From: a virus
Reading direction: 5' to 3' (one strand)
Virus record (IMG/VR): IMGVR_UViG_3300008339_000095
Location: 1-48,690 of that record
DNA: 48,690 nt
Part shown: positions 9,889 through 32,717 of the stretch, one piece after another
Layout of the letters: each line of letters opens with the position of its first letter
Position numbering within the stretch: the first letter of the stretch is position 1
Position numbers and translations under genes: made by a program
Notes under the pieces: model-generated
The model's database searches: none
Seen by the model: only the letters and a program-made list of their open reading frames with translations
Told to the model about the DNA's origin: nothing

Positions 9889-10290
9889 TCACTTACTGGA
9901 TTTACGTACTGAAACACCGTATTCACGCATCACGTTCACTCCGGGCGGAAGCCCATCGTTTTCGTGTTCTTTCATGAATTCTTTAAAGTTGCCTTGGTGG
10001 ATACGCCGCTCCAACAGGTGCGGGGCTTCGTTACCCAAGACAAACTTGTAGAAATTTTCCCAATCTTGGCAGAAGAAACGCTCGTTCAACTTGCGCATGA
10101 CTGTGCCGTGCTGCGTCTTGATACTATCAGCATTCACGGCGTTGCACATTTCGAGCATACGCGTTTCCAACTTCGCCATGTCTTCTTTCAAAGCGCTGTC
10201 TGCCAGTTCGTATTCGCGTAGCAGATTCTCGCGCCGTGAGCGTATTACTAAATACGCTTCGACCAGTTCGTCGGTATTATTCGTATTCAT
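9889..10290 (-). CDS. Helical hypothetical protein, 133 aa
   Basis: The N-terminal half is a predicted coiled coil (ENLLREYELADSALKEDMAK), followed by a compact C-terminal part rich in aromatic residues (FFCQDWENFYKFVL). I prefer the ATG at 10290 over the GTG three bases upstream because GGAGG (10297-10301 on the plus strand) is then six bases away. It overlaps the end of the SNF2 helicase gene by 14 nt and precedes the candidate ssDNA-binding gene, so it is probably a replication or recombination accessory protein. Its early codons contain a perfect copy of the CGTATT-N4-AATACG palindrome. Confidence 0.65.
   Translation of the reverse strand: MNTNNTDELVEAYLVIRSRRENLLREYELADSALKEDMAKLETRMLEMCNAVNADSIKTQHGTVMRKLNERFFCQDWENFYKFVLGNEAPHLLERRIHQGNFKEFMKEHENDGLPPGVNVMREYGVSVRKSSK
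10241..10256. repeat. 16-bp palindrome CGTATT-ACTA-AATACG, inside a CDS
   Basis: Both six-base arms are perfect. This copy is unusual because it lies within a coding region, about 34 nt after the start of the 133-aa gene, where it encodes part of AYLVIRS. It is the leftmost member of the family seen in the window. Confidence 0.8.
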
Positions 10291-11872
10291 CACTATCCTC
10301 CAACTCCTGTTTGTACAAGTCCACCAATTTTTGGTGATGATCTACCTTGCCTTGCAGCATGGAATACATCTTCTTCTCGACTTCTGACCCTCGCAGATGC
10401 ACTACAGACATCTTGTTCACTTGGCCCACTCTTTCGATGCGTGCGATACATTGCAAATACGTATCCACTGACATTACTGGAGACCAGAACACTACCGTGT
10501 CCGCAGCCGTGAGAGTGATGCCGTGCGCCGCTGACTGGGGCTGTATGACCAACACTCTAGGATCGGTGCTAGTCTGGAATCGCCCGATGATGTCGGAGCG
10601 TTGTCTTGCGGGGACGTCTCCTTTGATCGCTTCGTTCGTGATGCCGTGCTGAGTCAGGTACTCCCTGACCACGTCGATCGCGTGTAGGAAGGGGACGAAT
10701 ACTACCACTTTGTTGGTGGTCTCTTCAAGTGCTTCCTTCAGTGCGGCGAGGCGCGGCGATATGTCGAACTGCACTACGTTGTGCTTGTCGGTGTACACAG
10801 CGCCCGCAGATATCTGCAACAGTTTATTGAGTGATGCCGCTGCGTTCACAGCCGAAACTTGTTCGCCCGCTGCTTCTATGAGCAGTTGCTTTTTTAGTTC
10901 GTTGTAGTACTTCTTAGCCTGCGGAGTCAGCGGCACGTCACGGGTCTGGTAGATGATGTCTGGTAGATCGAGGCATTCCTTCTTCGTGTACCGTATCGCA
11001 GGTTGTAGCGCACGGAACACTTGATCCACAGCGTCATGCTTCGGCGTCCACTTGAACTTGCTGACCTGTACCATGATCCGATCGCGCCAAGCCGTGGAGT
11101 ACTTCGGCACCCTCATAGGGGATACCAATTTGGCTAAGCCGAACGCATCGACTGGAGACTGTGCAGCGGGGGTGCCCGTCATCATCCAAAGCCACGTGGT
11201 GGGTTCGATCAACTTGGCCAGAGTCTTCCAGCGCTTGGTACTTGGGTTTTTATATGCGTTAGCCTCATCGATGATGATCAGATCAAACCTCTTGTACAGT
11301 TGATCGATCACACTAGGTATTCCGTCATAGTTAATGATCGTGAAGTCGTACCCCTCGTTCAGTATCTTCTTGCGCTTTTCGGCTGAGCCATGTGCGATAC
11401 CGCACGTTCGGTGCATGGTGGTCTTGAATATATCAGCCTGCCATGCGGAGTACATGATGGAAAGCGGGCAGATGACCAGAACCTTCCTGATGATACCGAT
11501 GTTCATCAGGTAGTCCGCAGCCCAGATCGCTGCCGACGTCTTGCCTGTCCCTGCCTCGTTGAAGCAGAACGCCCTCTGGCGGAGACTCAAGAAGTATGCG
11601 GTCTCTCGCTGATGTTCAAACGGGGTGTAGAGTCCCGGCCACTTGTAATCCCGCTGCATGGGAGAAGGCACTTTCGGGAGATTCTGGCTCGGCATGTATT
11701 CATCCAGATAACCGACGAGCGTTTTCATCTCGTCGTGGTCCCAACACACCAGCAGTTCTTTGCTGTCTGCGTTATCGGCCAGTACTTCGCTACGCTCCAG
11801 CCGTGCCGTGATCTCTGAAGCGAAAGAATTGGACGCGGTGAACTTCACCGCCAAGTCATCGACTATGTTCAT
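10277..11872 (-). CDS. SNF2-family (SF2) helicase/ATPase, 531 aa
   Basis: All the main superfamily II motifs are visible: Walker A EAGTGKT (Lys111), DEAx-box IIIDEAN (about 199-205), motif III MTGTP (231-235), and near the C-terminus an SNF2-type motif VI, CIARIERVGQ. A Q-like FEHQRE segment precedes motif I. The length is normal for short phage SNF2 proteins, which lack chromatin-reader domains. Phage members are usually encoded beside family A polymerases and are thought to remodel or unwind DNA in replication or repair. The ATG has a weak AGGTG ribosome site; a terminator-like hairpin lies just upstream. Confidence 0.9.
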   Translation of the reverse strand: MNIVDDLAVKFTASNSFASEITARLERSEVLADNADSKELLVCWDHDEMKTLVGYLDEYMPSQNLPKVPSPMQRDYKWPGLYTPFEHQRETAYFLSLRQRAFCFNEAGTGKTSAAIWAADYLMNIGIIRKVLVICPLSIMYSAWQADIFKTTMHRTCGIAHGSAEKRKKILNEGYDFTIINYDGIPSVIDQLYKRFDLIIIDEANAYKNPSTKRWKTLAKLIEPTTWLWMMTGTPAAQSPVDAFGLAKLVSPMRVPKYSTAWRDRIMVQVSKFKWTPKHDAVDQVFRALQPAIRYTKKECLDLPDIIYQTRDVPLTPQAKKYYNELKKQLLIEAAGEQVSAVNAAASLNKLLQISAGAVYTDKHNVVQFDISPRLAALKEALEETTNKVVVFVPFLHAIDVVREYLTQHGITNEAIKGDVPARQRSDIIGRFQTSTDPRVLVIQPQSAAHGITLTAADTVVFWSPVMSVDTYLQCIARIERVGQVNKMSVVHLRGSEVEKKMYSMLQGKVDHHQKLVDLYKQELEDSDEYE

Positions 11873-11890
11873 ACTGCACCTACTAGGTTA

Positions 11891-11910
11891 AGAAAGCCCC
11901 TTACGGGGGC
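11891..11910 (-). terminator. Weak terminator hairpin before SNF2 gene
   Basis: On the minus strand GCCCC and GGGGC form a five-pair stem with a 5-nt loop, followed by TTTCTT. It sits in the 174-nt gap (11873-12046) between the HNH-like gene and the SNF2 gene. Nothing else recognisable is in that gap. The stem is short, so partial termination is likelier than full. Confidence 0.45.
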
Positions 11911-12046
11911 CAGTCGGTCAAGACTCTGCCCAACGAGGTAGGGGGCGGGCCGATCTTGACAGGCACGGTTACGCGTCATGCCAACGCGAGAAGGGCAGGA
12001 GGATGGTAGCCCTTCTTATCCTTGCACACTCATGCCTTGTGCGGAT

Positions 12047-12301
12047 TCACTTCATCGCTCCATTCGACTTGCGACGGAACGATCGGTTCTTTGATGGAGG
12101 TTCAAGCCGGGTGCCGTCACCGTTGCTGCCGCCTTTGGACAGCGCCTTGACATGGGCGATGTCCTTGCCCTTGCGGTTGATGCCCTTGGCGTCGTAACTA
12201 CGTCGGGCGCGTTGACGCTCCATGCGGTTTTCGTGTTCACCACGCTCAACCTGCTGCTTGTACTCTTTCTTGTAGGGTCTAGCCTTGTTCACGTAAGGCA
12301 T
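12047..12301 (-). CDS. Small HNH-like nuclease-family protein, 84 aa
   Basis: The first half is very basic and charged (RPYKKEYKQQVERGEHENRM). The second half carries DIAHVKALSKGGSNGDG followed by PSKNRSF, matching the common small phage HNH-like pattern D-x-D-H...LSKGG...N...NRSF. The second Asp of the usual DxDH is Ala here, and the zinc-binding Cys pairs of larger HNH enzymes are absent, so activity is uncertain. I start at the ATG with AAGGAGA upstream (MPYVNKA); a longer frame lacks a ribosome site. It sits between the RecB-like nuclease and the SNF2 gene. Confidence 0.6.
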   Translation of the reverse strand: MPYVNKARPYKKEYKQQVERGEHENRMERQRARRSYDAKGINRKGKDIAHVKALSKGGSNGDGTRLEPPSKNRSFRRKSNGAMK

Positions 12302-12302
12302 C

Positions 12303-12956
12303 TCATCTCTCCTTGTAAAAATTGCAACTACTGACTGGGCACCAACCGCACAATGGTCCGGCCTTTGCAGTCCATACGTTACTATCATATGCGATTTCAA
12401 GCCGCTTCAGATCCACCGCGAAGTGTCCCCATAGTTTGTTGGCGTCTTCTCTTTTGTACTCTTCAGGAATGAACGTGTTGTGCATCACGAACAGAAGTCC
12501 AGCCTTGATGTTCTGGACTTCCGGGAAGTGCGCGAACGTCATGATGGCCATCAACTTCAACTGCTTGGGGTCGGGGTAGCGGTTACTGCCTGTCTTATAG
12601 TCCACGATGTAGGCATCGGCCCCGTCAACGATCAGCAAATCAACGATACCTCGCACGTGCCTAGTATCGGAATCGAACGCGCACGGTACCCCCTCTGCCG
12701 TCAGGGCCATCTGGTGTTCACAGTAGCGAGTTCCGGGGATCGATAGCAGCGCGTCAAGTTGAGACTTGAATCGCTCGTAGTTCTTGAGAAGCGGCGTACC
12801 GTCGCGTACATAGTCTTCGCATGCCTTGTGAACTTCTGTCCCATACAGCATCTGCTGAGTGACTTTCTTGGTGAAGTCCTTCGCCACCTTAGTGTGGTAG
12901 TACTGCTTAGGGCAGTTGACGAAATCCTTCAGGCTGCTAAATGACCACGTGAACAT
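12303..12956 (-). CDS. PD-(D/E)XK exonuclease, Cas4/RecB-like, 217 aa
   Basis: The start is FTWSFSSLKDFVNCPKQYYH, typical of Cas4/RecB-like nucleases, with the first cluster Cys in the CP motif. The catalytic core reads GIVDLLIVDG (Asp) and YIVDYKTG (Asp-x-Lys). The C-terminus has CGWCPVSSC, which with the N-terminal Cys could hold an iron-sulfur cluster as in Cas4 and AddB. The ATG at 12956 overlaps the polymerase stop as TGATG, so translation is coupled. A 5'-3' or flap-type DNA exonuclease role in replication or recombination is inferred. The longer frame upstream lies inside the polymerase gene and is not used. Confidence 0.85.
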   Translation of the reverse strand: MFTWSFSSLKDFVNCPKQYYHTKVAKDFTKKVTQQMLYGTEVHKACEDYVRDGTPLLKNYERFKSQLDALLSIPGTRYCEHQMALTAEGVPCAFDSDTRHVRGIVDLLIVDGADAYIVDYKTGSNRYPDPKQLKLMAIMTFAHFPEVQNIKAGLLFVMHNTFIPEEYKREDANKLWGHFAVDLKRLEIAYDSNVWTAKAGPLCGWCPVSSCNFYKER

Positions 12957-14809
12957 CAACAGTCTCCGTATGACCTGCCGTACTTGGCCTCGCAGGCGAC
13001 GGGGAGGCCCGCTGCCCAACTGGGAGGAGTAGACATGGTCCCGACGATGAACGCAAGAGCCTCCGGCAACTGAGACTCCTCAACGACCACGACAGCCGCG
13101 TCATGGACGGTCAGCACCGGGCGGTACCACCTGCGCATGGCCAGCATCTGCTGCCCCACGATGATCCGGGCGAGTGCCTGCACCACGTTCTCCACGACAG
13201 CCCCGCCCCAGATGGACTGGACGCCCTTGCGCGAATCGTAGATCACCTTGCCATCCGACATCCGCAGGTTCTTGTACCGGATGTAGAGGCCGTTCGGCAG
13301 GCGTAGACCATGAGGTGTGACTTGTACAACTTTCTGTACACCCAGATAGTAGATGCCCTTTCCGGTAGGCCACGACATCATGTCTTGTAGCGCCCGGTCG
13401 CACTCCTGCCAGAGTTCCGTGATCTTGTGGTTCTCCTGCCGATACAGATTCACGATGCGCTTGCACTCGTCCTCGGGGAGATAGACGTTGATGGGCTTGG
13501 CGGTAGCAAGCGTGTGACGCAACTTGGCAGCGCCCGTACCGTACCCCAATCCCAAAATACAAGTTTTCCCTACGAACCGTTCAGCCGAGTTGTCCTTGGT
13601 GATCTCGCGCCCGTAGACCTTGCTTGCAAATATGGAGTACACATCCTGATTTGCACGGAACTGCGCCGTGACATCGTCCTGTCCGGCGAGCCAAGCCAGC
13701 ACACGGGCCTCGATCTGGCTGCTATCACAGTTGATGACGTAGTGCCCCAACGGAGCCAAGATGGCGTTCTTCAGAGCCTTCTTCTTCTTGTCCCGGCTCG
13801 GCAGGTTCTGGAAGTTGACAGCATCCTGCCCCGACCACCGTCCGGTGTGCGCCCCGTAGTACTTGAGGGGGATGGGCAGCAGCCCCTTGTTCCGCGCCCC
13901 AATGTCGATGAACCGCTCGATGCGCGACTCCTCGATGGTGGACTTGGTGCCGAGCCTCACCGCGCACAGTTGCTGCACGATGGGATCTTCATGTTCTTGG
14001 AGAGCGATGAACCCCTCGTCGTTCTTGGCGAGGGCGAAGGTCTCCTTGCCCGTCGTGAGACTGATCTTCTTGGGCGGGGTGACACCATGCTTCTCAAGTT
14101 CGGCAGCAAACTGCGGGTTGCTTGCCAGACATGCCCGGACCTCCTCGACGGTTGTGACTTCCATCGCTTCCATCAGGCCAGACAAGAGCCGCTGCTTCTC
14201 ATCGCGGACCTCCTGAAGTCGATCGACCAAGAGGGCGTCGTCCACGTGGAGTACGGGCTGGGTGTACATCCGCAGCGTCATGTCGATCAAGTCAAGTTCG
14301 TCTTGCGGGAAGTAGTCCGACAGCAGGACATTGAACAACTTGAAGGTGAGTTCGACGTCGTTGACGCAGTACCGCCCGTAGGCTGCGAGTTCCTCCGGGG
14401 TGAAGTCCTGCTTGCGCTTGCCCAACGCATCGACCACCTCGGTGCCCTTCTTGCCCAAATTGTGCCGCTCAGCGAGAGCCGCGAGTGACCCACCTGCATC
14501 CACGCCGTGTATGGCACGGGCCATGCACAGGGTATCGAAGTACATCGCCGGTACAATGCCATACTTCCACGCGAGTATCGCGCCGTCGAACATCATGTTG
14601 TGACAAAGCAGGGCAGAGTTGCCCCAGTCGATCATGGCGAGTTCGTCAGCGATGTCTTCGGTGACCCACTTGGTCGGACCGTCATCGACCTTGATGCCGA
14701 CACCGATGACCTCAAAGCGCGGGTCGTTCAGGTACTCCTCGTTGGTCTGGGTGCGGAACCCAAGGTCGTTGGCATAGTACGTCTCGAAATCAAGTGTGAT
14801 AAAACTCAT
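12956..14809 (-). CDS. polA: DNA polymerase, family A with 3'-5' exonuclease, 617 aa
   Basis: The start MSFITLDFETYYA places exonuclease motif I (D7, E9) at the very N-terminus; HNMMFDG is motif II and YGRYCVND motif III. Polymerase motif A is CDSSQIEAR (Asp362), motif B is RFVGKTCILGLGYG (Arg411, Lys415, Tyr423), and motif C is LTVHDAAV. The residue aligned with E. coli Phe762 is Leu419. Motif C has HDA where most relatives have HDE; the catalytic Asp570 is kept. There is no 5'-3' exonuclease domain. The ATG at 14809 overlaps the preceding stop as ATGA, and the stop overlaps the next gene as TGATG. This is the phage replicase. Confidence 0.95.
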   Translation of the reverse strand: MSFITLDFETYYANDLGFRTQTNEEYLNDPRFEVIGVGIKVDDGPTKWVTEDIADELAMIDWGNSALLCHNMMFDGAILAWKYGIVPAMYFDTLCMARAIHGVDAGGSLAALAERHNLGKKGTEVVDALGKRKQDFTPEELAAYGRYCVNDVELTFKLFNVLLSDYFPQDELDLIDMTLRMYTQPVLHVDDALLVDRLQEVRDEKQRLLSGLMEAMEVTTVEEVRACLASNPQFAAELEKHGVTPPKKISLTTGKETFALAKNDEGFIALQEHEDPIVQQLCAVRLGTKSTIEESRIERFIDIGARNKGLLPIPLKYYGAHTGRWSGQDAVNFQNLPSRDKKKKALKNAILAPLGHYVINCDSSQIEARVLAWLAGQDDVTAQFRANQDVYSIFASKVYGREITKDNSAERFVGKTCILGLGYGTGAAKLRHTLATAKPINVYLPEDECKRIVNLYRQENHKITELWQECDRALQDMMSWPTGKGIYYLGVQKVVQVTPHGLRLPNGLYIRYKNLRMSDGKVIYDSRKGVQSIWGGAVVENVVQALARIIVGQQMLAMRRWYRPVLTVHDAAVVVVEESQLPEALAFIVGTMSTPPSWAAGLPVACEAKYGRSYGDC

Positions 14810-15060
14810 TCTTCCACCCCAATACCATGTGCCTTCTCGATCTCCCTTGCGAAGCGCCACTTGCCTACGCCAACAGGAAGGAGGGGATTGATCCCCCTAT
14901 CGATGGCAATGAGTTCTTCGTCGGTCAGGGGCTTACGGACTGGCGGGCGTGGACACGTGTAGTGGTCCATTGTGATCGCTGCCCGAAGCGCTTGGGCCTC
15001 TTGCAGATCGGGGTGCAACAACTTCAGCGCCGCTTCAGCGGCATCGCGCAGATATGACAT
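14806..15060 (-). CDS. Hypothetical protein upstream of polA, 84 aa
   Basis: The ATG (MSYLRDAAEAALKLLH) has a strong AGGAGG site and the stop overlaps the polymerase start by four bases. The N-terminal half is an amphipathic helix. The C-terminal half contains PLTDEELIAIDRG and WRFAREIEKAHGI, phrases I have seen in small phage proteins of unknown function from betaproteobacterial phages. No catalytic motif is visible. Coupling to polA suggests co-expression rather than a known shared function. Confidence 0.65.
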   Translation of the reverse strand: MSYLRDAAEAALKLLHPDLQEAQALRAAITMDHYTCPRPPVRKPLTDEELIAIDRGINPLLPVGVGKWRFAREIEKAHGIGVEE

Positions 15061-15082
15061 CACTCTACCTCCTCTTGAAAGA

Positions 15083-15109
15083 CAGGGGCGGTGGCAGTCC
15101 CGCCCCCTG
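15083..15109 (-). terminator. Terminator-like GC hairpin, leftward
   Basis: On the minus strand CAGGGGGCGG pairs with CCGCCCCTG (one bulge), followed by TCTTTC. It lies in the 53-nt gap between the 77-aa gene and the 84-aa gene upstream of polA. It resembles the hairpins at 8681 and 11891, so the leftward operon may be stepped into several transcripts. Confidence 0.5.
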
Positions 15110-15113
15110 CGGA

Positions 15114-15347
15114 TCACATCACCCGCTTCTTGTTCATCTCCTCCAGAAGCAGCAGCACCTGCCGCACTTCCTCCGTCACCTGACGGCGGGCCTCGTCGGA
15201 GAGGTGCGACACGCGGTAGTTAAAAGACACTTTGTCATGAAAGTCCATTTTACCCTTGGCGTGTGTCACTGCCCACACAATGTTTTGAATGGTGGAAAGA
15301 ACAATGTTGTCTCTCTCACAGTGCTGGTCATAAGTCAGATTGCTCAT
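15114..15347 (-). CDS. Hypothetical helical protein, 77 aa
   Basis: The ATG gives MSNLTYDQHCERDNIVLST. The protein is mainly helical with a charged C-terminus (EVRQVLLLLEEMNKK). No domain is recognised. It lies two bases after the stop of the zinc-finger-like gene and is followed by a terminator-like hairpin, so it ends the small-gene transcript that runs from about 20 kb. Confidence 0.6.
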   Translation of the reverse strand: MSNLTYDQHCERDNIVLSTIQNIVWAVTHAKGKMDFHDKVSFNYRVSHLSDEARRQVTEEVRQVLLLLEEMNKKRVM

Positions 15348-15349
15348 CT

Positions 15350-15541
15350 TCAGTCTCCTTTGTTGTTGACACTTTTACCCATGCCGTGGAGCCACCCCTT
15401 TGTGGTCAGGGCGTATCCAGCGGCTTTCAACTCATCTTCGTTGCGGCAACGTCCGCTTATCAGTTTGTGGACACGGAACGCCTCGGGCTTGGCGAACAGC
15501 CGCTTGCATTCCTTACATCTTTTTTCTGGTTTTGGTTTCAC
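15350..15541 (-). CDS. Small zinc-finger-like protein, 63 aa
   Basis: The N-terminal part has CKECKRLF, then His25 and Cys32, giving a C-x2-C...H...C arrangement that could hold one zinc ion. The C-terminal part (AGYALTTKGWLHGMGK) is a small globular tail. It overlaps the upstream 63-aa gene by 29 nt. Such single-finger proteins are common in phage early regions and may bind DNA or host proteins; the role here is unknown. Confidence 0.6.
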   Translation of the reverse strand: MKPKPEKRCKECKRLFAKPEAFRVHKLISGRCRNEDELKAAGYALTTKGWLHGMGKSVNNKGD

Positions 15542-15704
15542 TCTTCAACCTCTGGTTTTCTGCACGTAGGCGCTTGATCTCATCATGGCATGCCCAGAGG
15601 ACGCTGCCAACGGTCAAGAACTTGAACTCGGTCGTGGTCCCGGTGTTGTTGACCTCACCCGGCAACGCACGGATCAAGTCAAGGATGTCTTCTTCAGTAC
15701 CCAT
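15513..15704 (-). CDS. Hypothetical protein, 63 aa
   Basis: I choose the ATG at 15704 (MGTEEDILDLIRALPG) because GGGGAT lies at a suitable distance; another ATG two codons upstream has the GGGG immediately adjacent. The C-terminus is a short basic coiled coil (EIKRLRAENQRLKSETKT), suggestive of dimerisation or nucleic-acid contact. It overlaps both neighbours. No family is recognised. Confidence 0.55.
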   Translation of the reverse strand: MGTEEDILDLIRALPGEVNNTGTTTEFKFLTVGSVLWACHDEIKRLRAENQRLKSETKTRKKM

Positions 15705-15948
15705 CACCATCCCCGATCAAGAAGATCGGTGTGTACTCACCGACATACGAGCCTACCACGTTGTACTCCATCCACTCGATGGCCTCTTCGTGCGTCATCT
15801 CTTGATCATGGATGAGTATCTCCACGCACTTGTTGTAGTCGTACACGGCGATCAGTTTGGTGTGTTGCCACCCAAGACCGATCAGGGCTTTCTCAAACCC
15901 ATCAGCGTACAGCGTGTTCGGATCAAGCGGTTCTTCGTCGTGGGTCAT
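15694..15948 (-). CDS. Conserved small phage protein, 84 aa
   Basis: The core FEKALIGLGWQH, AVYDYNKCVEILI, HEEAIEWMEYNVVGSYVG and TPIF is a pattern I recognise as a widespread small phage protein of unknown function. The acidic C-terminus overlaps the next gene. The ATG overlaps the upstream stop as ATGA. It is probably an early protein; no enzymatic motif is evident. Confidence 0.7.
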   Translation of the reverse strand: MTHDEEPLDPNTLYADGFEKALIGLGWQHTKLIAVYDYNKCVEILIHDQEMTHEEAIEWMEYNVVGSYVGEYTPIFLIGDGDGY

Positions 15949-16184: not shown

Positions 16185-16186
16185 GT

Positions 16187-17887: not shown

Positions 17888-17888
17888 G

Positions 17889-20922: not shown

Positions 20923-20938
20923 CGTATTATTTAATACG
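20923..20938. repeat. 16-bp palindrome CGTATT-ATTT-AATACG
   Basis: Perfect arms, located in the 41-nt gap upstream of the VRR-NUC start. It is the farthest of the start-associated copies (19 bp from the ATG). Confidence 0.85.
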
Positions 20939-23855: not shown

Positions 23856-25052
23856 TCAATCCTCCACGTTGATCACGCTGCCCGAAGGCGGCGTAAAGTG
23901 TCTGTTGCCCTTGACCAACCACAGCGTCGGCACGTTGGTCTTCCAGTTGATGTTGCCCTCGACGTAGCCGTCCGTGAACACGATCATGCAGTCGGCCTTG
24001 ATGTCTCTCTCGATGATGTACTCGCTGACACAGCCCACGCGAGTGCCGCCACCGCCCATCGGCTTGAGCAGGTTCTTCAGGTTCGTATAGTCACCCTCGA
24101 ACACCTGCTCACCATGCACGTGCGTATCCCACCACAGCACACGGATGCGCTCAGGGGTCACGATGTCGCACAGTTCTTGGATACAAGCAGCCACACGTCC
24201 GATGTCATCGTTGCTGATGGAGCCAGACGTATCGATCGGCAGTACCACCTCACCGACAGTCTCGTTGATGAGTGATGGCAAGAAATGATCGTCGGCCACC
24301 CGGTGCTTGTTGAACCTGCGCCACGTCAACTCGTCCGCGCCCCGTGCATATGCACCCCAGAACTCACGTAGAGCCTCGCGCCAGTCCACCGGAGGAGCCA
24401 TCATGTCCTTGACTTGACGCGGGATCTTGGCACCGAACTTGCCAGCGAGGATGCCGCCTTGATGGATGGCATCATCGACATCGCGCTTGGCCTGCTCTTG
24501 CTGAGCCTCGGTCATCTCGTCGTGGCTGCTGCCATCATGTTCGTCAAGCGCATCGCCACGCCCGCCGCCACCACCACCACCGCCACCCTCCTGCTCCTGC
24601 TTCAAGTATTCGTAAATACGCCGGACAGACCAGCCCTTGAACATCGGGTCGTACAGCCACCCATCCCCCAACTTGACCAACGCCGGATGACTGAGATGCA
24701 GATCTTGGATGATGTCGTTCACGGCGTAGTCCATCGCCATGTTCGCAAGCCTGCCGTTCTCCTTCATCAAATCCCGGTGTCGCGGGATATGTTTCATCAT
24801 GACGTGCAGGTTCTCATGCAAGACCAGACCTGCTACCTCGGCATCGGTCAGCCGCTCAAGGAACGCTCGCCCGTATCGCTTGTTGTATCCGTCCGTGTAT
24901 GCGGTCGGGCAAGCCGCCGGGTCATCGACCACGCTCGTCTCGCCCATCAGGATGACCCCACCGTACAGGCAGGTCTCGGGGTGCTTGATCAACCGGATGT
25001 GCGCCTTCTTCAGACGCACCTCCATGCTCGCCTGTTTAAGTACTGCGTTCAT
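23856..25052 (-). CDS. Metallopeptidase-like/VWA protein, partner of MoxR, 398 aa
   Basis: The N-terminal domain has HENLH at 79-83 (HExxH pattern) in AGLVLHENLHVMMKHIPRH, as in DUF2201-type putative metallopeptidases. A 9-Gly run near 156-164 links to a C-terminal von Willebrand A domain with MIDAS motif DTSGSIS (274-280) and a later VFTDGYVEG. Directly upstream lies a MoxR-type AAA ATPase gene. MoxR-VWA pairs act as metal-dependent chaperones that remodel or activate target complexes; CobS-CobT of cobalt chelatase is a relative. No cobalamin gene is nearby, so a phage-specific target is likelier. A one-mismatch palindrome lies within the gene. Confidence 0.88.
   Translation of the reverse strand: MNAVLKQASMEVRLKKAHIRLIKHPETCLYGGVILMGETSVVDDPAACPTAYTDGYNKRYGRAFLERLTDAEVAGLVLHENLHVMMKHIPRHRDLMKENGRLANMAMDYAVNDIIQDLHLSHPALVKLGDGWLYDPMFKGWSVRRIYEYLKQEQEGGGGGGGGGRGDALDEHDGSSHDEMTEAQQEQAKRDVDDAIHQGGILAGKFGAKIPRQVKDMMAPPVDWREALREFWGAYARGADELTWRRFNKHRVADDHFLPSLINETVGEVVLPIDTSGSISNDDIGRVAACIQELCDIVTPERIRVLWWDTHVHGEQVFEGDYTNLKNLLKPMGGGGTRVGCVSEYIIERDIKADCMIVFTDGYVEGNINWKTNVPTLWLVKGNRHFTPPSGSVINVED
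24605..24620. repeat. Palindrome variant AGTATT-CGTA-AATACG in VWA gene
   Basis: One mismatch in the left arm. It lies within the coding sequence for RIYEYLK, just before the Gly run. As a coding copy with a mismatch it may be a chance match. Confidence 0.45.
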
Positions 25053-25066
25053 GTTGGTATGACTCC

Positions 25067-26143: not shown

Positions 26144-26156
26144 ATCACTACCTCTC

Positions 26157-26172
26157 AGTATTGGTTAATACG
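26157..26172. repeat. Palindrome variant AGTATT-GGTT-AATACG before MoxR gene
   Basis: One mismatch in the left arm. It lies in the 35-nt gap between the helical 310-aa gene and the MoxR gene, 13 bp from the MoxR ATG. Confidence 0.8.
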
Positions 26173-26178
26173 CTTCTG

Positions 26179-27111: not shown

Positions 27112-27317
27112 CGCTCATCCTCCGTATTAGGTAATACGATGTTGGGTTGTCTACCATTCAAAACGTTCAGTCGGTTACGCACGTGTCTCTGCCATGCGTT
27201 CTCCGTGTATATCTTGGACTCGATCTCCCGGTATTGGTTCCACAGTTGGGCATGTCGGCGCACAGATATCTCAAGTTCTCGCGTGAGACTCTCGACCGTG
27301 TCCTCTATCTTCTTCAT
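27108..27317 (-). CDS. Coiled-coil small protein, 69 aa
   Basis: MKKIEDTVESLTRELEISVR is a coiled-coil start, followed by an amphipathic middle. Its last codons (IVLPNTEDER) are written by the palindrome at 27123-27138, and its stop overlaps the ATG of the 310-aa gene. Function unknown. Confidence 0.6.
   Translation of the reverse strand: MKKIEDTVESLTRELEISVRRHAQLWNQYREIESKIYTENAWQRHVRNRLNVLNGRQPNIVLPNTEDER
27123..27138. repeat. 16-bp palindrome CGTATT-AGGT-AATACG
   Basis: Perfect arms; the full 16-mer is identical to those at 30692 and 30938 and, inverted, at 31957 and 32702. It is embedded in the 3' end of one gene and touches the GGAGG of the next, 11 bp from its ATG. Confidence 0.9.
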
Positions 27318-27520
27318 GTCTTTCCCTTATCTTTAAGTGTCACCACGCATAGCACTTGCACCGGCCCCAACTCGTAGTCGTCCGGGTCTTTGCCCATGTC
27401 CTCAAGGTTTTGCCGGACGGTCTCGATGACAATCTCATCGAACCCCAGTGGGCATCCGTACAACTCGTCAAGGCTGTATATCAATTCGACATCGGCTCTC
27501 TCGCGTGTCTTCTCGTTCAC
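27314..27520 (-). CDS. Small hypothetical protein, 68 aa
   Basis: GTG start (MNEKTRERADVELIYSLDEL) with GTGA overlap. The body contains FDEIVIETVRQNLEDMGKDP, a helical phage-like segment, and ends VVTLKDKGKT. No known function. Confidence 0.55.
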   Translation of the reverse strand: MNEKTRERADVELIYSLDELYGCPLGFDEIVIETVRQNLEDMGKDPDDYELGPVQVLCVVTLKDKGKT

Positions 27521-27801
27521 GATTGCACCTCCACTTCCAGATACTGCACCACATAGGGATAGTCATCGTCATCCTCGTCATGGGGCGGGTGGTACCAGAC
27601 ATTCACGCACAGCACGAACTTGTCCGGCACTTCCGTATTACGCCAGAGGAAATAGTTGCACTCCCCCTTGGCTATCCATTCGTCGTCCTCATTCCTGCCG
27701 TATCTGTCCCAGTCGAGGATGACCTCACTCAGACAGCCCTCGTCAGGCAGGTTGTCGGGGTCGAAGTCCTCTTGCTTGATGATCATGTAGTTCACGGTCA
27801 C
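27517..27801 (-). CDS. Acidic hypothetical protein, 94 aa
   Basis: I choose the GTG at 27801, which overlaps the upstream stop (GTGA). The product MTVNYMIIKQEDFDPDNLPD is beta-like and acidic, with ECNYFLWRNTEVPDKFVLCV and HDEDDDDYPY. The acidic tail suggests a DNA mimic or protein-binding role, which is speculative. Confidence 0.55.
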   Translation of the reverse strand: MTVNYMIIKQEDFDPDNLPDEGCLSEVILDWDRYGRNEDDEWIAKGECNYFLWRNTEVPDKFVLCVNVWYHPPHDEDDDDYPYVVQYLEVEVQS

Positions 27802-28001
27802 GCCTTGTACCTCAGTCTCGGATACATATCTTGTGCGGTGTACTCGATGACATCCCAATTCACGCCCTCGTTGGCATCGTGGGTGAGGTGTATGCGCTGA
27901 AGCACCGCTTGTGCTTGGTCATCGGTCAGGTCGGGGCGCACTTGCTTCACATCCGCGATGTACCACCGGATGGTGATGTGGAAGGGTTCTTTCGGGTTCA
28001 T
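27798..28001 (-). CDS. Conserved small phage protein, 67 aa
   Basis: MNPKEPFHITIRWYIADVKQ, then RPDLTDDQAQAVLQRIHLTH and NEGVNWDVIEYTAQ, is a pattern common to phage proteins of unknown function. ATG has GGAGGACAAGGT upstream, a variant of the repeated junction. Confidence 0.7.
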   Translation of the reverse strand: MNPKEPFHITIRWYIADVKQVRPDLTDDQAQAVLQRIHLTHDANEGVNWDVIEYTAQDMYPRLRYKA

Positions 28002-28204
28002 ACCTTGTCCTCCGTCGCATGCTTGTGCCACATTTTTTTCGCCGCTATGTAAGCGTCCCATGCGTTATCCCGTGCCTTGATGCGGTCGGCACTTACGCCT
28101 AGCGGGTCTGCTTCATCGTTTTTGCAGATTGCATCGAGCATCCGGTACGCAGAGAGCAGCCGATATGCCGCCTCGTACAAAGCATCCAACAATTCTTCGC
28201 TCAT
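27998..28204 (-). CDS. Small helical protein, 68 aa
   Basis: MSEELLDALYEAAYRLLSAY is an amphipathic helix, followed by KNDEADPLGVSADRIKARDN. It ends HATEDKV at the variant junction. ATGA overlap with the upstream gene. Unknown function. Confidence 0.55.
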   Translation of the reverse strand: MSEELLDALYEAAYRLLSAYRMLDAICKNDEADPLGVSADRIKARDNAWDAYIAAKKMWHKHATEDKV

Positions 28205-28611
28205 GTCTTGTCCTCCTCTTTGATCTGCACATCGCAGGTCACAGTCCAGTTGACGAACTCGTACTTGTCGGGGTCGAGACTTCGGTCACGCAGTTCTCTG
28301 GCGAATGCGAGCCTGACCGCTTCGATGAAATCGCGGTTTACCCAAACAGGCACACTCCCCATCGGCACACTCAACTTGTTCGGCGCGGGGTCGGCCTCGT
28401 CCACCATGTACTCGTCGGGGTCTTCGTCCCATGTCGTCCAGTACGAGTCGCTCTCCTCGTCGTCGGTCATCTCCTTCCACTCGTCGGGGGTGATGTCCTT
28501 GTGCAAGCACTCGTCGGAGCAGTAATAGGCCATGCCACCGTCTATGCAGTAGCCCTCGTTCATGCCCTTGCCGCACTCGTCGCACTCACGGGCGTACTTC
28601 TTGTAAGCCAT
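28201..28611 (-). CDS. Zinc-binding conserved phage protein, 136 aa
   Basis: The N-terminus CDECGKGMNEGYCI then YYCSDECLHKDIT gives a four-to-five-Cys zinc site of the type found in a common phage family. A long acidic middle (MTDDEESDSYWTTWDED) and a beta-strand C-terminus follow, ending IKEEDKT, with the repeated junction GGAGGACAAGAC serving the next gene. ATG has GGAGG upstream. Confidence 0.7.
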   Translation of the reverse strand: MAYKKYARECDECGKGMNEGYCIDGGMAYYCSDECLHKDITPDEWKEMTDDEESDSYWTTWDEDPDEYMVDEADPAPNKLSVPMGSVPVWVNRDFIEAVRLAFARELRDRSLDPDKYEFVNWTVTCDVQIKEEDKT

Positions 28612-28623
28612 GTTCAGACCTCC

Positions 28624-28776
28624 TTAGAAAAACACGATGTAGGCATACGCGCCAGTCAGCGCGGCGAGCGCACCATGTACCAGCCCCCACATGTATCCGC
28701 GATTGACGTGATGCACGATGAAGTCCATCAGCAACTCCGTCTCCTGCTCGGTCAGGTGAACCTGTCTGCGTTCCAT
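28624..28776 (-). CDS. Small membrane protein, 50 aa
   Basis: MERRQVHLTEQETELLMDFI is followed by a hydrophobic helix (WGLVHGALAALTGAYAYIVF) reaching the C-terminus. The ATG has GGAGG, directly joined to a perfect palindrome 8 bp upstream. The gene fills an otherwise empty gap. It is a plausible single-pass inner-membrane protein of unknown role. Confidence 0.65.
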   Translation of the reverse strand: MERRQVHLTEQETELLMDFIVHHVNRGYMWGLVHGALAALTGAYAYIVFF

Positions 28777-28784
28777 ATGTCCTC

Positions 28785-28800
28785 CGTATTAGTCAATACG
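28785..28800. repeat. 16-bp palindrome CGTATT-AGTC-AATACG
   Basis: Perfect arms; on the minus strand its last G joins GAGGACAT then ATG, so palindrome and ribosome site abut. Confidence 0.9.
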
Positions 28801-28808
28801 CTGACGAT

Positions 28809-29180
28809 TCAGCGATACCAATAAGTCACGCCGTCGATGTCGATGGACGTCCAGTCGCCTTGCAAGTTCGCTATGGTCGCGTCCCAGTCCACGACGATGT
28901 AGGTCGGCAGGGTCGGCATGTCGCCGCAGTCATGCAGAAGTTCTTGTATGTAACTCTTGTAGTGCGAGTCCCGCACAAGCAGGTCGGGATACCAATCGCC
29001 CCGCCATTTCACATCGCCGCTCTTACTCTTGATGTTATCGAGTACGCTCAGCAGCGATAGCATCTCCTCGACCTCACCCGGCTGCATCATCCCGGACTGT
29101 TGGGCTTCCTCCAACTCCTCATACCGTTCCGTGAGACACCACACCTCGATGGTGTCTTCGGTCGTGTCCAGTACGGGCAT
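28809..29180 (-). CDS. Conserved phage protein, 123 aa
   Basis: The C-terminal half, YIQELLHDCGDMPTLPTYIV then DWDATIANLQGDWTSIDIDG, is a very common phage/prophage segment of unknown function. The N-terminal half (EVWCLTERYEELEEAQQSG) is acidic and helical and reminiscent of ArdA-like acidic proteins, but the match is too weak to name. A palindrome lies 9 bp downstream of the stop. Confidence 0.7.
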   Translation of the reverse strand: MPVLDTTEDTIEVWCLTERYEELEEAQQSGMMQPGEVEEMLSLLSVLDNIKSKSGDVKWRGDWYPDLLVRDSHYKSYIQELLHDCGDMPTLPTYIVVDWDATIANLQGDWTSIDIDGVTYWYR

Positions 29181-29181
29181 G

Positions 29182-29430
29182 TCACACCTCCACGGTGTCC
29201 GGCGTGTCCTGTCGGGGGTAGGCGCGGATATCGTCGCGCTTGAGTGCGCTCGAATAGAACCCGATCATGTAATTCACCAATTTCCAGAACTCCAATGCGT
29301 CCATCTTGGCCGTGTCGTTGTTGAGCGTGGCGAGGACGGTCACCTCGTCCCAACTCGCGTCGGCATCGCCAATGGTGTCGCTGATGTACCCGATGGTGTA
29401 AGTGCTGTTCGGTATGATTTTCGTGTCCAT
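29182..29430 (-). CDS. Small hypothetical protein, 82 aa
   Basis: ATG at 29430 (MDTKIIPNSTYTIGYISDTI) has GGAGAACGAC upstream, partly made by a palindrome copy ending 9 bp away. The protein is mixed alpha/beta with ALEFWKLVNYMIGFYSS. Function unknown. Confidence 0.6.
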   Translation of the reverse strand: MDTKIIPNSTYTIGYISDTIGDADASWDEVTVLATLNNDTAKMDALEFWKLVNYMIGFYSSALKRDDIRAYPRQDTPDTVEV

Positions 29431-29439
29431 GTCGTTCTC

Positions 29440-29455
29440 CGTATTGGTTAATACT
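29440..29455. repeat. Palindrome variant CGTATT-GGTT-AATACT
   Basis: One mismatch in the outer base of one arm. It lies 9 bp upstream of the 82-aa gene start and touches its ribosome site. Confidence 0.8.
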
Positions 29456-29456
29456 C

Positions 29457-29867
29457 TCACTCGTTACCGTCTTCGCGCTTCTTCTGGAGGCGGTACTGCA
29501 TCTGGATCTTGAGCGCGGCGCGGCGCTTGCGCCCCTCGTCCAAAATCCTGTTGACCGTGTAGATGTGGTCGTTCAAGGCGATGAGGGGTGTGGCGTAACG
29601 CCCGATGACCTCGCTCGGCTTGTCCGTGTCCTCGTAGAACAGGCAGGTCTCGTACGGGAAGGAAGACACGCCGTTCACATCCCGCGCCATGTCGTTGAGG
29701 TTCACCGTCGAGACGGTCACGCCCTCCACCCAAGTCAGCGCGATGGTCTCGGGGTGGATGAACTCCCGGAGGGACGGGCGGTACTTGCCCTTCAAGAGGT
29801 CGCCAAGACGCGCACCCCCCTTCTCATCGAACATGCTGATCTTCGGCTTCTTGTCATCGTCGTTCAT
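29457..29867 (-). CDS. Hypothetical protein, 136 aa
   Basis: MNDDDKKPKISMFDEKGGAR is acidic; the middle reads IHPETIALTWVEGVTVSTVN and YETCLFYEDTDKPSEVIG, a beta-rich domain; the C-terminus is a basic helix (KRRAALKIQMQYRLQKKRED). It lies between two palindromes, with the upstream copy 9 bp from its ATG. Function unknown. Confidence 0.6.
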   Translation of the reverse strand: MNDDDKKPKISMFDEKGGARLGDLLKGKYRPSLREFIHPETIALTWVEGVTVSTVNLNDMARDVNGVSSFPYETCLFYEDTDKPSEVIGRYATPLIALNDHIYTVNRILDEGRKRRAALKIQMQYRLQKKREDGNE

Positions 29868-29876
29868 GTCGCTCTC

Positions 29877-29892
29877 CGTATTGGCTAATACG
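29877..29892. repeat. 16-bp palindrome CGTATT-GGCT-AATACG
   Basis: Perfect arms, placed exactly between the TAG of the zinc-ribbon gene (29893) and the ribosome site of the 136-aa gene. Confidence 0.9.
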
Positions 29893-30114
29893 CTAGTGGT
29901 TGCTCCCCCGACCGGGGCGCGTTATCTGGGCTAGTAGTGTCCTGTCGGTCACCACGATGTAGTTCCCCTTGTGCATCGGGACTACCGTGTGCTTGCGCTT
30001 GCGTGCATCGGCCTCGCCACAGCGTAGGCAGGTTATGTATCCCGCCTCGACACGCTTGGCGGCGACCTGCTCCAACTGACAGGCCACGCACCACATAGAA
30101 CCCACGCCGCTCAC
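29893..30114 (-). CDS. Zinc-ribbon small protein, 73 aa
   Basis: GTG at 30114 overlaps the upstream stop as GTGA. CVACQLEQVAAKRVEAGYIT followed by CLRCGEADARKRK gives two CxxC knuckles. The basic tail fits nucleic-acid binding. The longer frame upstream is only the shadow of the next gene. Confidence 0.65.
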   Translation of the reverse strand: MSGVGSMWCVACQLEQVAAKRVEAGYITCLRCGEADARKRKHTVVPMHKGNYIVVTDRTLLAQITRPGRGSNH

Positions 30115-30341
30115 GCCTCGATGCGGTGCATCTGGCCGAGTCCGCTCAGGATGTTGAGATGCTTGGCGACCGTGTAGAGCCGCATGACCTTGCGGGGGTC
30201 GCTGAACCGGGAACGCAGGAAGGCGTAGTGCTGACTGCGCGGGAGACAGAGGAGTTCGGACGGGATGCGGATGACCCCGGTTCCTCGCGGGTGCTTGATG
30301 TAGATGTCGAAGTTCAGGTTCGGCTGCTTGGTGCTGCGCAT
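30111..30341 (-). CDS. Hypothetical protein, 76 aa; first gene of leftward block
   Basis: ATG at 30341 (MRSTKQPNLNFDIYIKHPRG) has AGAGGT upstream; a GTG 13 codons earlier lacks a ribosome site. The sequence IRIPSELLCLPRSQHYAFLR and FSDPRKVMRLYTVAKHLNIL is mixed alpha/beta. It is the first gene after the long non-coding region, so a leftward promoter should lie just upstream, but I could not identify one. Confidence 0.6.
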   Translation of the reverse strand: MRSTKQPNLNFDIYIKHPRGTGVIRIPSELLCLPRSQHYAFLRSRFSDPRKVMRLYTVAKHLNILSGLGQMHRIEA

Positions 30342-30507
30342 GATGTAGTACCTCTTGGTTTGGTTGATGCGAATAAACACCCACGCGGTGACGGCGCAGT
30401 AGTCAGACCATTCAAGAATCTAACTAACCACACCATCACCGCTAGGCTGCTCACTCGTCGGATGACGGCTTCACAGCAGTTGTAGGCAGATACTCGGGAC
30501 GGCTTGG

Positions 30508-30523
30508 CGTATTGCGTAATACG
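30508..30523. repeat. 16-bp palindrome CGTATT-GCGT-AATACG
   Basis: Perfect arms; non-coding context, about 170 bp upstream of the first leftward gene (start at 30341), where a promoter-associated operator could lie. Confidence 0.85.
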
Positions 30524-30691
30524 TAGCCTCATGTCCCTAACGCTGCCGGGTGTATGTTGCCCACCCGTATCGGCTGCGGGGCAGACCATCTAGCCGTTCA
30601 TCGCGCTTGCCGTACCCTGCGTCTACGTCCGGTTTTACAATCCACATACCGGGGTTCCGCAGTTGCCCCCCTGCTCCCGCCCCACCCAGAA

Positions 30692-30707
30692 CGTATTAGG
30701 TAATACG
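30692..30707. repeat. 16-bp palindrome CGTATT-AGGT-AATACG
   Basis: Perfect arms; the whole 16-mer is identical to the copies at 27123 and 30938. Confidence 0.85.
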
Positions 30708-30937
30708 CGCTACATGGGATTGATAGGTCACAGGTTTTACAGGCCGCTGACTACTAGGCGACTTGTCACAGTCCGCCCCTGTCGCGTTGAGGGAGTACGT
30801 CCCCGAGATATCGCGCTCTCGACCTCTTGATATGAGGCCACCGAACCTTGCCATCGGCTCGTCGCGGCTCTGTCCACCGCGCCTTCGTCCACTACCGGCT
30901 TTCGGCTTGTGGCATCGGAGACTTCCGGGTCGGGCAG

Positions 30938-30953
30938 CGTATTAGGTAATACG
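30938..30953. repeat. 16-bp palindrome CGTATT-AGGT-AATACG
   Basis: Perfect arms in non-coding DNA, 230 bp from its identical neighbour. Confidence 0.85.
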
Positions 30954-31055
30954 CTCGGCTTGCGCCATCCGTTCCTGTCCGTCCTACATAGTTAGACAGG
31001 CCAGACCGGGAAAGGTTCCGTGAATCGGTGGAAAATCGTCGTGATTCCCGAACAG

Positions 31056-31071
31056 CGTATTGGGTAATACG
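31056..31071. repeat. 16-bp palindrome CGTATT-GGGT-AATACG
   Basis: Perfect arms; lies 118 bp after the previous copy and shortly before the TTGTTCCA array. Confidence 0.85.
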
Positions 31072-31104
31072 GTCGGGCAGCGTTATAGATCCGCCAGCGT
31101 TATA

Positions 31105-31116
31105 GAACTGGCATCG
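31105..31116 (+). repeat. Isolated GAACTGGCATCG word
   Basis: This 12-mer is identical to the third unit of the GAACTGGC array at 31788-31867 but lies about 680 bp away, on the other side of the TTGTTCCA repeats. Confidence 0.6.
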
Positions 31117-31140
31117 TTGTAGCATCGAGGTGGGGGCAAG

Positions 31141-31273
31141 GGATAATGCCCGTTTGTTCCATTTGTTCCAAGTGTTCCAACGGCTAGATAGATTCTGACG
31201 GTATTAGATAATACGGTTGTTCCAAGTTTTGACAGGATAATGCTCGTTTGTTCCATTTGTTCCAAGTGTTCCA
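31141..31273 (+). repeat. Left TTGTTCCA array with 40-bp direct repeat
   Basis: A roughly 40-bp unit beginning GGATAATGCCCGTTTGTTCC is present at 31141 and, with one change, at 31235. TTGTTCCA or TGTTCCA words start at 31154, 31163, 31173, 31217, 31248, 31257 and 31267. A palindrome variant lies between the two units. Confidence 0.85.
31200..31215. repeat. Palindrome variant GGTATT-AGAT-AATACG
   Basis: One mismatch at the outer base; it lies between the two 40-bp units of the TTGTTCCA array. Confidence 0.75.
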
Positions 31274-31334
31274 AAATCGTAACGGAACTTATTCTTCAAA
31301 ATTGGGAGTGGTCGAGCGGAGGGGTGGTTTCGCA

Positions 31335-31401
31335 AGTCGTTGATTTTGTAGAGAAGAAGAAGAAGATATTGATATTATTTTATAGTAGTAGTAGTAGTAG
31401 A
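31335..31401. other. AT-rich tract with GAA and TAG triplet runs
   Basis: The tract contains a GAAGAAGAAGAAG run, an A/T stretch around GATATTGATATTATTTTATA and five TAG triplets. It lies between forward and inverted TTGTTCCA words and is the most easily melted part of the window, as expected for a DNA unwinding element. Confidence 0.55.
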
Positions 31402-31542
31402 GGGTCAAAAAAGGGCTTGTTCCACGCATAGTGGAAAATAGGGTATAACGGGGAAAGTGACCCAGTGCTTATACGTCATTAAAGATGGCCCAGAATGATG
31501 CTGCTCCTCGCCCCTTGCCCTTCCTCCCCTCTAGCCTATTTT

Positions 31543-31678
31543 TGGAACATTGGAACAAATGGAACAAAGTGCCACTTTTGCTATATAAATCAACGACATA
31601 TTTTGTTCCAACCAAAGAATTCGCTTGGAACAAATGGAACAAACTGGCACTATTTTCTGGAACAAACGGGCATTATCC
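31543..31678 (-). repeat. Right, inverted TGGAACAA array
   Basis: TGGAACAA or TGGAACA words start at 31543, 31551, 31560, 31626, 31635 and 31658. Bases 31659-31678 are the exact reverse complement of 31141-31160. One forward TTGTTCCA (31603) is interspersed. The two arms face each other across the AT-rich tract. Confidence 0.85.
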
Positions 31679-31777
31679 ATCGTTTTGGGGGATTAAGAAT
31701 CGATGCTGAGACTCACAAGGCTTCGATAAACTCTCTATAAGTCACGTTATCGTTTTGGGGGATTAAGGATCGACGCT
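31679..31777 (+). repeat. 29-bp direct repeat, 70-bp spacing
   Basis: ATCGTTTTGGGGGATTAAG opens both copies (31679-31707 and 31749-31777); they differ at two positions near the end. The repeat overlaps the edge of the inverted 20-mer at 31659-31678. Confidence 0.8.
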
Positions 31778-31787
31778 CGCCCAACGG

Positions 31788-31867
31788 GAACTGGCTTCGC
31801 ACTAAGAACTGGCTTCGTAGAACTGGCATCGCCTAGAGAACTGGCATCCGACAAGGAACTGGCCTCG
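31788..31867 (+). repeat. GAACTGGCNTC array, five units
   Basis: Units GAACTGGCTTCG or variants start at 31788, 31806, 31820, 31838 and 31856, mostly 18 bp apart (one gap of 14). The spacing is under two helical turns and the spacers vary, more like iterons or protein-binding sites than a CRISPR. Confidence 0.8.
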
Positions 31868-31922
31868 ACTGACCCGGAGGGTCAGGAGAGCCGAGCCGAG
31901 CCGCGAGGGGGGGCGAGAACGG

Positions 31923-31954
31923 CAAAACCCCCGCTAGGTTGCCCTAGCAGGGGT
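31923..31954 (-). terminator. Rho-independent terminator, leftward
   Basis: On the minus strand CCCCTGCTAGG and CCTAGCGGGG pair over ten bases with one mismatch, loop GCAA, followed by TTTT. It lies 27 bp after the stop of the 202-aa gene and would isolate that gene's transcript from the repeat region and the main leftward operon. Confidence 0.85.
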
Positions 31955-31956
31955 CG

Positions 31957-31972
31957 CGTATTACCTAATACG
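31957..31972. repeat. 16-bp palindrome CGTATT-ACCT-AATACG
   Basis: Perfect arms; the 16-mer is the exact reverse complement of the copies at 27123, 30692 and 30938. It lies between the 202-aa gene's stop and its terminator. Confidence 0.85.
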
Positions 31973-31980
31973 CTAGGCCG

Positions 31981-32589
31981 TTAGGCTTTCGCCTTCAGCG
32001 CCTTGCCCTCCGAAAGAGGCTTGCGGCAGACCGTGACGAGAGCATCCAACCCGTTCAGCAAGGCCAGCGCGGCCTTGTTGTCATGCTCGGACAGGATGAC
32101 GAGCGCGGCGTCCACCATCGCCAGAACCTTAACCGGGTCAGGCAAGGCCGGAGCCTTATCCGCCTCGACCGCATCGATGGCCTCCGGGATGAAGTCCGCG
32201 ATGTTCTGCTTCACGGACACCCGGACATAGGCTTGCATGGCCTTGCGGATGGCGGTCTGGCGCGGGTCGTATGCCTTAGCGGTCGCCTTGTCCGCCACCC
32301 AGAGGTCGAGGTCGGAACCGGTCGGCGTGTAGGACTCGGCCTCGCCGTCAGCGGCGAACTTCACCATGCGGGGCGCGGTTGTCCACGCGACCGCGAAGAT
32401 GCGGCGAGCCTTGCCGTCGAAGTCCTGCCACGCCTCCGAGTCCGTGGTGGCCTTGATGGCGGCGACCGTCGGCGCGTCCGGGAAGTAGCCCGGAATGGCC
32501 TTGCGGAGCGCGTCGCGGGCGATAGCCGCACCGGACTGACCGGCGGCGACCTCGTTGAGATAGCCGAGGGTGATAGCGTAGTCGAGCAT
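31981..32589 (-). CDS. Hypothetical early protein, 202 aa
   Basis: ATG with GGAGATTACG upstream. The protein is mostly helical and Ala-rich, with MLDYAITLGYLNEVAAGQSG at the start, a middle DSEAWQDFDGKARRIFAVAW and ending ALLNGLDALVTVCRKPLSEG. I recognise no motif. It stands alone: a terminator follows and non-coding DNA flanks both sides, each with a palindrome. It may be a first-expressed protein or a replication/packaging factor acting at the neighbouring repeats, which is only inference. A membrane role is unlikely. Confidence 0.75.
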   Translation of the reverse strand: MLDYAITLGYLNEVAAGQSGAAIARDALRKAIPGYFPDAPTVAAIKATTDSEAWQDFDGKARRIFAVAWTTAPRMVKFAADGEAESYTPTGSDLDLWVADKATAKAYDPRQTAIRKAMQAYVRVSVKQNIADFIPEAIDAVEADKAPALPDPVKVLAMVDAALVILSEHDNKAALALLNGLDALVTVCRKPLSEGKALKAKA

Positions 32590-32701
32590 CGTAATCTCCT
32601 GTGCGCCGTAGCGCGTTGTTGTTGGTTACAGTAGATTGGACAGGCCGGGGCGGGATTAGTTCCGCATCCGCTAGACTTTTTTCGATGTATTTTCGCAACA
32701 G

Positions 32702-32717
32702 CGTATTACCTAATACG
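32702..32717. repeat. 16-bp palindrome CGTATT-ACCT-AATACG
   Basis: Perfect arms; identical to the copy at 31957. It lies about 110 bp upstream of the 202-aa gene start, in a position compatible with an operator. It is the rightmost copy. Confidence 0.85.

Follow-up and report, generated by a model that had tools for sequence, protein, structure and literature searches.

Introduction

Dispersed palindromic operators combined with an autoregulated gene for the protein that binds them are typical of KorB/ParB-type systems. In this study we examined a family of dispersed palindromes, together with the gene p202 that lies between two of them, in a 48.7-kb IMG/VR virus record (IMGVR_UViG_3300008339_000095) belonging to an uncultured virus of bacteria; this record, taken over its full length of 48,690 nucleotides (nt), is referred to below as the window. 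We propose that 13 of the palindromes probably act, as double-stranded DNA, as operators for a regulator that the phage itself encodes, the 202-amino-acid (aa) protein p202, a reading that draws on comparisons between the window and its relatives.

Several phage systems with repeated elements have already been described. In Cluster A mycobacteriophages such as L5 and Bxb1, 20–30 repressor sites are distributed genome-wide, mostly off promoters, where they block elongation, and the operator consensus and the repressor diverge together between subclusters (PMC6550527). These phages are temperate, their sites are 13 base pairs (bp) long, asymmetric and orientated with transcription, and the repressor is a monomeric two-domain protein (PMC9283540). 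The start-associated sequences (SAS) of Cluster K are 13-bp, asymmetric, orientated elements which contain the Shine-Dalgarno sequence (AGGAG) and lie 3–7 bp from the start, and the same phages carry extended SAS (ESAS), imperfect 17-bp inverted repeats with a variable spacer and a subcluster-specific consensus, thought to be DNA-binding sites, whose binder is not identified in that work (PMC3203893). In Bacillus phage SPbeta a 15-bp element present in many intergenic regions (SPBRE), which was found in silico first, is bound by MrpR, a phage master repressor that maintains lysogeny and has a tyrosine-recombinase fold and no standard helix-turn-helix (HTH) (PMC10516654). A search of the literature on the switching of operator–repressor specificity yielded nothing closer.

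Results

The preliminary description of the window listed 15 palindromes of the form CGTATT-N4-AATACG, and all 15 were recovered at their coordinates, with exact arms in 11 and one outer-base change in the other four. Seventeen matches are found in the window when up to two mismatches are allowed, against 0.70 expected (in none of 100 dinucleotide shuffles did the count exceed 4); the reversed, non-complemented pattern has no match in the window, and 300 order-2 Markov sequences contained no exact copy, compared with the 11 observed. The absence of copies from 1–10 kb and 33–48.7 kb, also noted earlier, holds at up to one mismatch. Two copies, at 10241-10256 and 24605-24620, are located within coding sequence. 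The first, within a 134-aa gene, retains its CGTATT arms (CGTATTTATCAATACG) in phage G032, whose operators are of the CGTATCA type; because it fails to follow the operator code of that phage, it was rejected as an operator and is probably a coding coincidence. The second, within a VWA-like gene, is probably no operator either and was set aside by position alone. It is strongly supported by sequence comparison that the 13 palindromes left, all between 20.9 and 32.7 kb, form one operator family, built of two 7-bp half-sites (CGTATTA/TAATACG) flanking a 2-bp centre, 16 bp in total. The term phage-wide, used at first for this family, therefore does not apply, and the operator stretch is equally confined in relatives (25.8–34.3 kb of G031 and 21.4–28.9 kb of G032).

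Six operators precede start codons, and the 8–19 nt given previously for the gap between palindrome end and start codon were correct in all six cases: 19 nt ahead of the VRR-NUC-like gene (20923-20938), 13 nt ahead of the MoxR-like AAA gene (26157-26172, one outer mismatch), 11 nt ahead of a 310-aa gene (27123-27138), 8 nt ahead of a 50-aa gene (28785-28800), 9 nt ahead of an 82-aa gene (29440-29455, one outer mismatch; the gene may also be read as 92 aa) and 9 nt ahead of a 136-aa gene (operator 29877-29892, gene 29457-29867). The other sites are found elsewhere. Three interrupt a structured non-coding RNA located where the leftward genes begin (30446-30997, minus strand), being placed in an apical loop (30508-30523, missing from some relatives), within a variable arm (30692-30707) and at its 5' end (30938-30953). 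Two more control-region operators follow at 31056-31071 and at 31200-31215, the latter with one outer mismatch and kept in relatives L008 and L077; the distances from 31056 to the next three sites in turn, 118, 246 and 184 bp, are identical in the window and in L008. The last two bracket p202 (31981-32589, minus strand): an exact copy at 31957-31972, right after the p202 stop codon and in the same place in most relatives, and another exact copy at 32702-32717, 113 nt from the p202 start, whose position is kept in relatives. A terminator-like hairpin followed by a T run can be read from the sequence after p202 (31929-31953, minus strand), and the hairpin is equidistant in relatives.

IMG/VR holds many relatives of the window, and the close ones carry about 8–12 palindrome copies each, placed at corresponding genes as well as within the control region. 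Sites are therefore kept in front of orthologous genes, the comparison by which the preliminary description had proposed to judge the family, and this conservation upholds the operator part of its interpretation. What differs between relatives is the sequence of the operator: in place of the CGTATTA of the window, other phages use 16-bp palindromes with CGTATCA, GCCATTA, GCTGAGA or CGTGACA half-sites around a 2-bp centre, and the 310-aa, MoxR and VRR-NUC genes are preceded by a site in all or most of these five types (the 310-aa gene in all five). These other types emerged when 83 loci, several of them from one contig, were searched de novo for palindromes that recur; simulated sequences gave one copy, rarely two. 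Nearly always one operator type is used per phage; all 11 phages tested (11/11) hold their own code, the other types being absent at one mismatch except in L133, where a CGTATTA site is accompanied by one decayed site of the CGTGACA type, and L114, which has two foreign sites. A concerted change is seen in the pair G006 and G007, in which most of the conserved neighbouring proteins are 87–97% identical and the operator differs at 9/9 corresponding sites; at these nine sites 84/144 operator positions are kept, against 859/1080 flanking positions.

Some individual cases may be added. At 9659–9694 of L133 the CGTATTA operator adjoins the decayed CGTGACATAAGTCACG, which resembles the fossil of an earlier code. 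L032 and L114, which are one contig, have mostly CGTATCA operators with one CGTATTA and one CGTGACA site, and the p202 alongside has an unusual helix; this mixture belongs either to a mosaic phage or to a chimeric assembly. Two operators flanking p202 in L104 (5830 and 6559) share the same asymmetric change (CGTATTAACTAACACG). More distant phages (L138-L179), whose 310-aa proteins are about 53% identical, possess repeated palindromes of their own, e.g., of the CCACG/CGTGG and TTCAGG/CCTGAA types; a p202-like gene sought between these palindromes was not found, and the intervals are mostly non-coding.

Among the genes compared, p202 is the only one that co-varies with the operator code. A homologue occurs in every CGTATTA phage where the region was recovered, and an exact palindrome is present 111–134 nt upstream in 36 of the 39 distinct family members, the other three comprising two cut by a contig end and one with an imperfect upstream copy; in 29 of the 39 a palindrome also lies no more than 40 nt past the stop. 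In a comparison of 14 phages, pairs that share an operator average 55% identity in p202 and pairs that do not average 18% (label shuffle 1/2000). The corresponding same/different values for five other proteins are 79/76, 74/68, 72/69, 67/64 and 76/72%, a gap of about 3–5 points. The p202 proteins of CGTATTA, CGTATCA and GCCATTA phages are nevertheless united in a single family when their profiles are compared (99.1% and 96.9%). The AlphaFold2 (AF2) model of p202 is helical with a predicted local distance difference test (pLDDT) score of 90, and models of two p202 types share the same order of helices. A long helix formed by residues 109–129 (IRKAMQAYVRVSVKQN; codons 32203-32265, minus strand) is nearly invariant among CGTATTA phages, in which the rest of the protein is 44–71% identical, and shows another consensus in CGTATCA and in GCCATTA phages, which makes it a candidate for the operator-reading element. 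In L116 the helix is of the CGTATCA type and the C-terminal tail is that of the CGTATTA type.

The 102-aa HTH protein (8731-9039), put forward originally as a possible binder, is not supported as such: among more distant relatives its identity to the window protein stays alike whatever the operator, at 67–68% in two CGTATTA phages and 64–66% in CGTATCA and GCCATTA phages, and it was rejected for this lack of co-variation.

The pattern of variation within the sites bears on whether they are read as DNA or as RNA. Among 123 exact and 31 single-change CGTATT sites no compensated arm change is present, and 30/31 single changes are at the outermost pair; in the CGTATC set one compensated pair was seen. 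The two central bases vary, and positions 8 and 9 are complementary in just 8 of the 123 exact sites, which come from 14 genomes, against 39 expected. CGTATT sites thus avoid self-complementary centres; the CGTATCA phages differ in this respect, AT being common there. Because the arm changes are uncompensated, selection appears to act on the DNA sequence and not on RNA pairing, and uncompensated arms with a varying centre are, as far as sequence can indicate, what is seen in a DNA operator recognised one half-site at a time.

The principal alternative, anticipated in part when RNA folding was suggested for these sites, is that the palindromes are hairpins beside the ribosome-binding site which, bound by p202 or alone, control translation or mRNA stability. 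The six copies that end shortly ahead of start codons and the three that sit in variable arms or loops of the structured RNA agree with it, and a palindrome abutting ribosome-binding sites would suit a translational operator as well as a transcriptional one. Against it, the outer-pair changes break pairing freely, arms that are invariant within a genome around a variable centre are the opposite of the usual RNA-hairpin pattern, the central positions are complementary less often than expected, and the sites upstream of p202 and past its stop are not in leader positions. In G006 and G007, moreover, a TATAAT lies 46 nt and 58 nt, respectively, downstream of the operator that precedes the gene at the p202 position, and since the box is downstream this operator is probably outside the transcript of that gene. 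Hairpins as the active form were rejected because of the uncompensated arm changes, and we consider this explanation unlikely.

The region between the operators at 30.4–31.0 kb is a strongly conserved non-coding stretch. An alignment of 22 sequences gives 80 pairs with 98.2% of cells paired and 36 pairs changed on both sides, compared with 3–6 when the partners are slid by 1–3 columns, figures which favour the structure to some degree as it was derived from the same alignment on which it was tested. CGTATTA phages have this RNA, as do GCCATTA phages and L116, and it has no Rfam match; a model of its 5' domain gives a hit in the window and in L118, whereas G006, G007 and phages further removed give none. 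The stretch separating p202 from the RNA contains a cluster of 15 TGTTCCA/TGGAACA repeats (31155-31658), possibly an origin or a second control element near the GC-skew turn; such repeats are dense in G003, G006, G007, G010, G025, G031 and G032 too.

As regards the remainder of the window, rightward virion genes start at 33.5 kb and wrap round to 5.7 kb, including a 1770–1834-aa protein (355-5667, plus strand) whose C-terminal part matches phage DarB-like antirestriction families, and from about 30 kb leftward run the replication and early genes (PolA, SNF2 helicase, exonuclease, DUF927 primase/helicase and the MoxR/VWA pair). GenBank phages gave no DNA match to the window and no homologue of p202 or of the 310-aa protein, and no repeated palindrome was found in the 50 kb read of the four nearest terminase relatives. 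In 13 records, some of them incomplete, neither a tyrosine integrase (PF00589) nor ParB_N (PF02195, for which control genomes were positive) was found, serine integrases not having been searched for; on the basis of these two families a lytic life is likely, not proven. The only match for the 310-aa protein in a bacterial genome is L193 (CAIPLJ010000099.1), a contig of 7.6 kb from an actinobacterial metagenome bin, which is a weak hint at the host.

Discussion

In the mechanism that we propose, a symmetric p202 dimer would sit on the two 7-bp half-sites around the 2-bp centre, probably reading them through the helix of residues 109–129, both within the control region and at the short intergenic gaps of the leftward genes, just upstream of ribosome-binding sites. 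As the gene is flanked by two operators, p202 probably regulates itself. Bound p202 would most likely lower early transcription, by blocking initiation and by acting as a roadblock for elongating RNA polymerase; a repressor of this kind fits the location of the sites, which are in the gaps between leftward genes, off promoters, as well as in the control region. From phage to phage the recognition code and p202 would then change in concert. The likely use is a timed shut-off of early genes, with the exclusion of relatives sharing the same code as a possible by-product.

A number of points weigh against this interpretation. Fold searches of PDB and BFVD detect no DNA-binding fold in p202, which has no match in Pfam or PHROG either, and repression as such is assumed from position and precedent. 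Every close relative of the window is a metagenomic contig. Operator labels partly follow relatedness, label shuffles giving 49/2000 for MoxR and 28/2000 for the 310-aa protein; this link is broken by L129, whose MoxR and 310-aa proteins are 85% and 84% identical to those of the CGTATCA phage L130 and whose p202 type and operators are those of the window. In G006 and G007 the operator-bracketed proteins at the p202 position are 34% identical over 116 aa only, with an unrelated N-terminal part, but the small variable genes next to them differ too, and homology of these proteins to p202 could not be demonstrated (hhalign 0.3%), so that the pair counts by position only.

Activation in place of repression, with p202 binding as part of phage-specific promoters of middle or early genes, seems to us quite unlikely. 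The upstream operator of G006 and G007, 46–58 nt before TATAAT, would be in a position compatible with an activator; most sites, however, have a stop codon on one side and a Shine-Dalgarno sequence on the other and are too near the start for a promoter and leader, and promoter-like TATAAT/TATACT boxes are found in G006 and G007 about 50–65 nt upstream of two sites. A role for p202 in binding a centromere or an origin, with the palindromes serving as dispersed sites for partition or replication of the ParB/KorB type, is very unlikely, for all that the many scattered palindromes, the autoregulated-looking gene, the repeat-rich control region and the GC-skew turn near 31–33 kb might suggest it, since neither ParB_N nor tyrosine integrase was found in the 13 records, a plasmid state has left no sign, and the sites are precisely at the starts of particular genes and move with them.

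If the palindromes are operators of p202, the recognition word has been replaced throughout a regulon and not at a single site, in phages whose identity otherwise reaches 97%. With the one co-changing gene identified, these phages provide a natural data set on how a regulator and about ten operators switch together, which is difficult to study in model phages. As a predicted binder, p202 points to a DNA-binding protein family whose fold has not been described. It is possible, though rather doubtful, that p202 is the first member of a new family of proteins that bind DNA sequence-specifically through a fast re-coded reading helix, and that a lineage of non-lysogenic phages has diversified into many mutually blind regulatory types resembling immunity groups, perhaps through conflict in co-infection.

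Compared with the systems described so far, the repetition of a short motif at gene boundaries off promoters, with 13 copies of which six are 8–19 nt before starts, is like that of Cluster A stoperators; operator type and p202 diverge together in sequence as in Cluster A, and the proposed roadblock off promoters is like that of the L5 repressor at stoperators (PMC6550527). The sites of the window are, however, 16-bp palindromes in place of asymmetric, orientated 13-bp sites, p202 lacks any Pfam, PDB or BFVD match where the Cluster A repressor has HTH and stoperator domains, and Cluster A phages are temperate, where the 13 records searched here gave no tyrosine integrase and no ParB_N. The Cluster K SAS, first cited as a loose precedent, are a partial analogue: they too are repeated elements just ahead of the starts of non-structural genes, but the sites described here are symmetric, end before the Shine-Dalgarno sequence and in several cases are not at starts, and the closer counterpart is the ESAS with their inverted repeats and subcluster-specific consensus. 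Unlike MrpR, p202 has no match to the tyrosine-recombinase fold. KorB/ParB systems share the dispersed palindromic operators and an apparently autoregulated candidate binder gene, and differ in the ParB_N domain. Our best reading, by analogy, is that of a network functionally like that of the stoperators, and thus resembling lysogeny control, yet palindromic and found in phages with no detected integrase.

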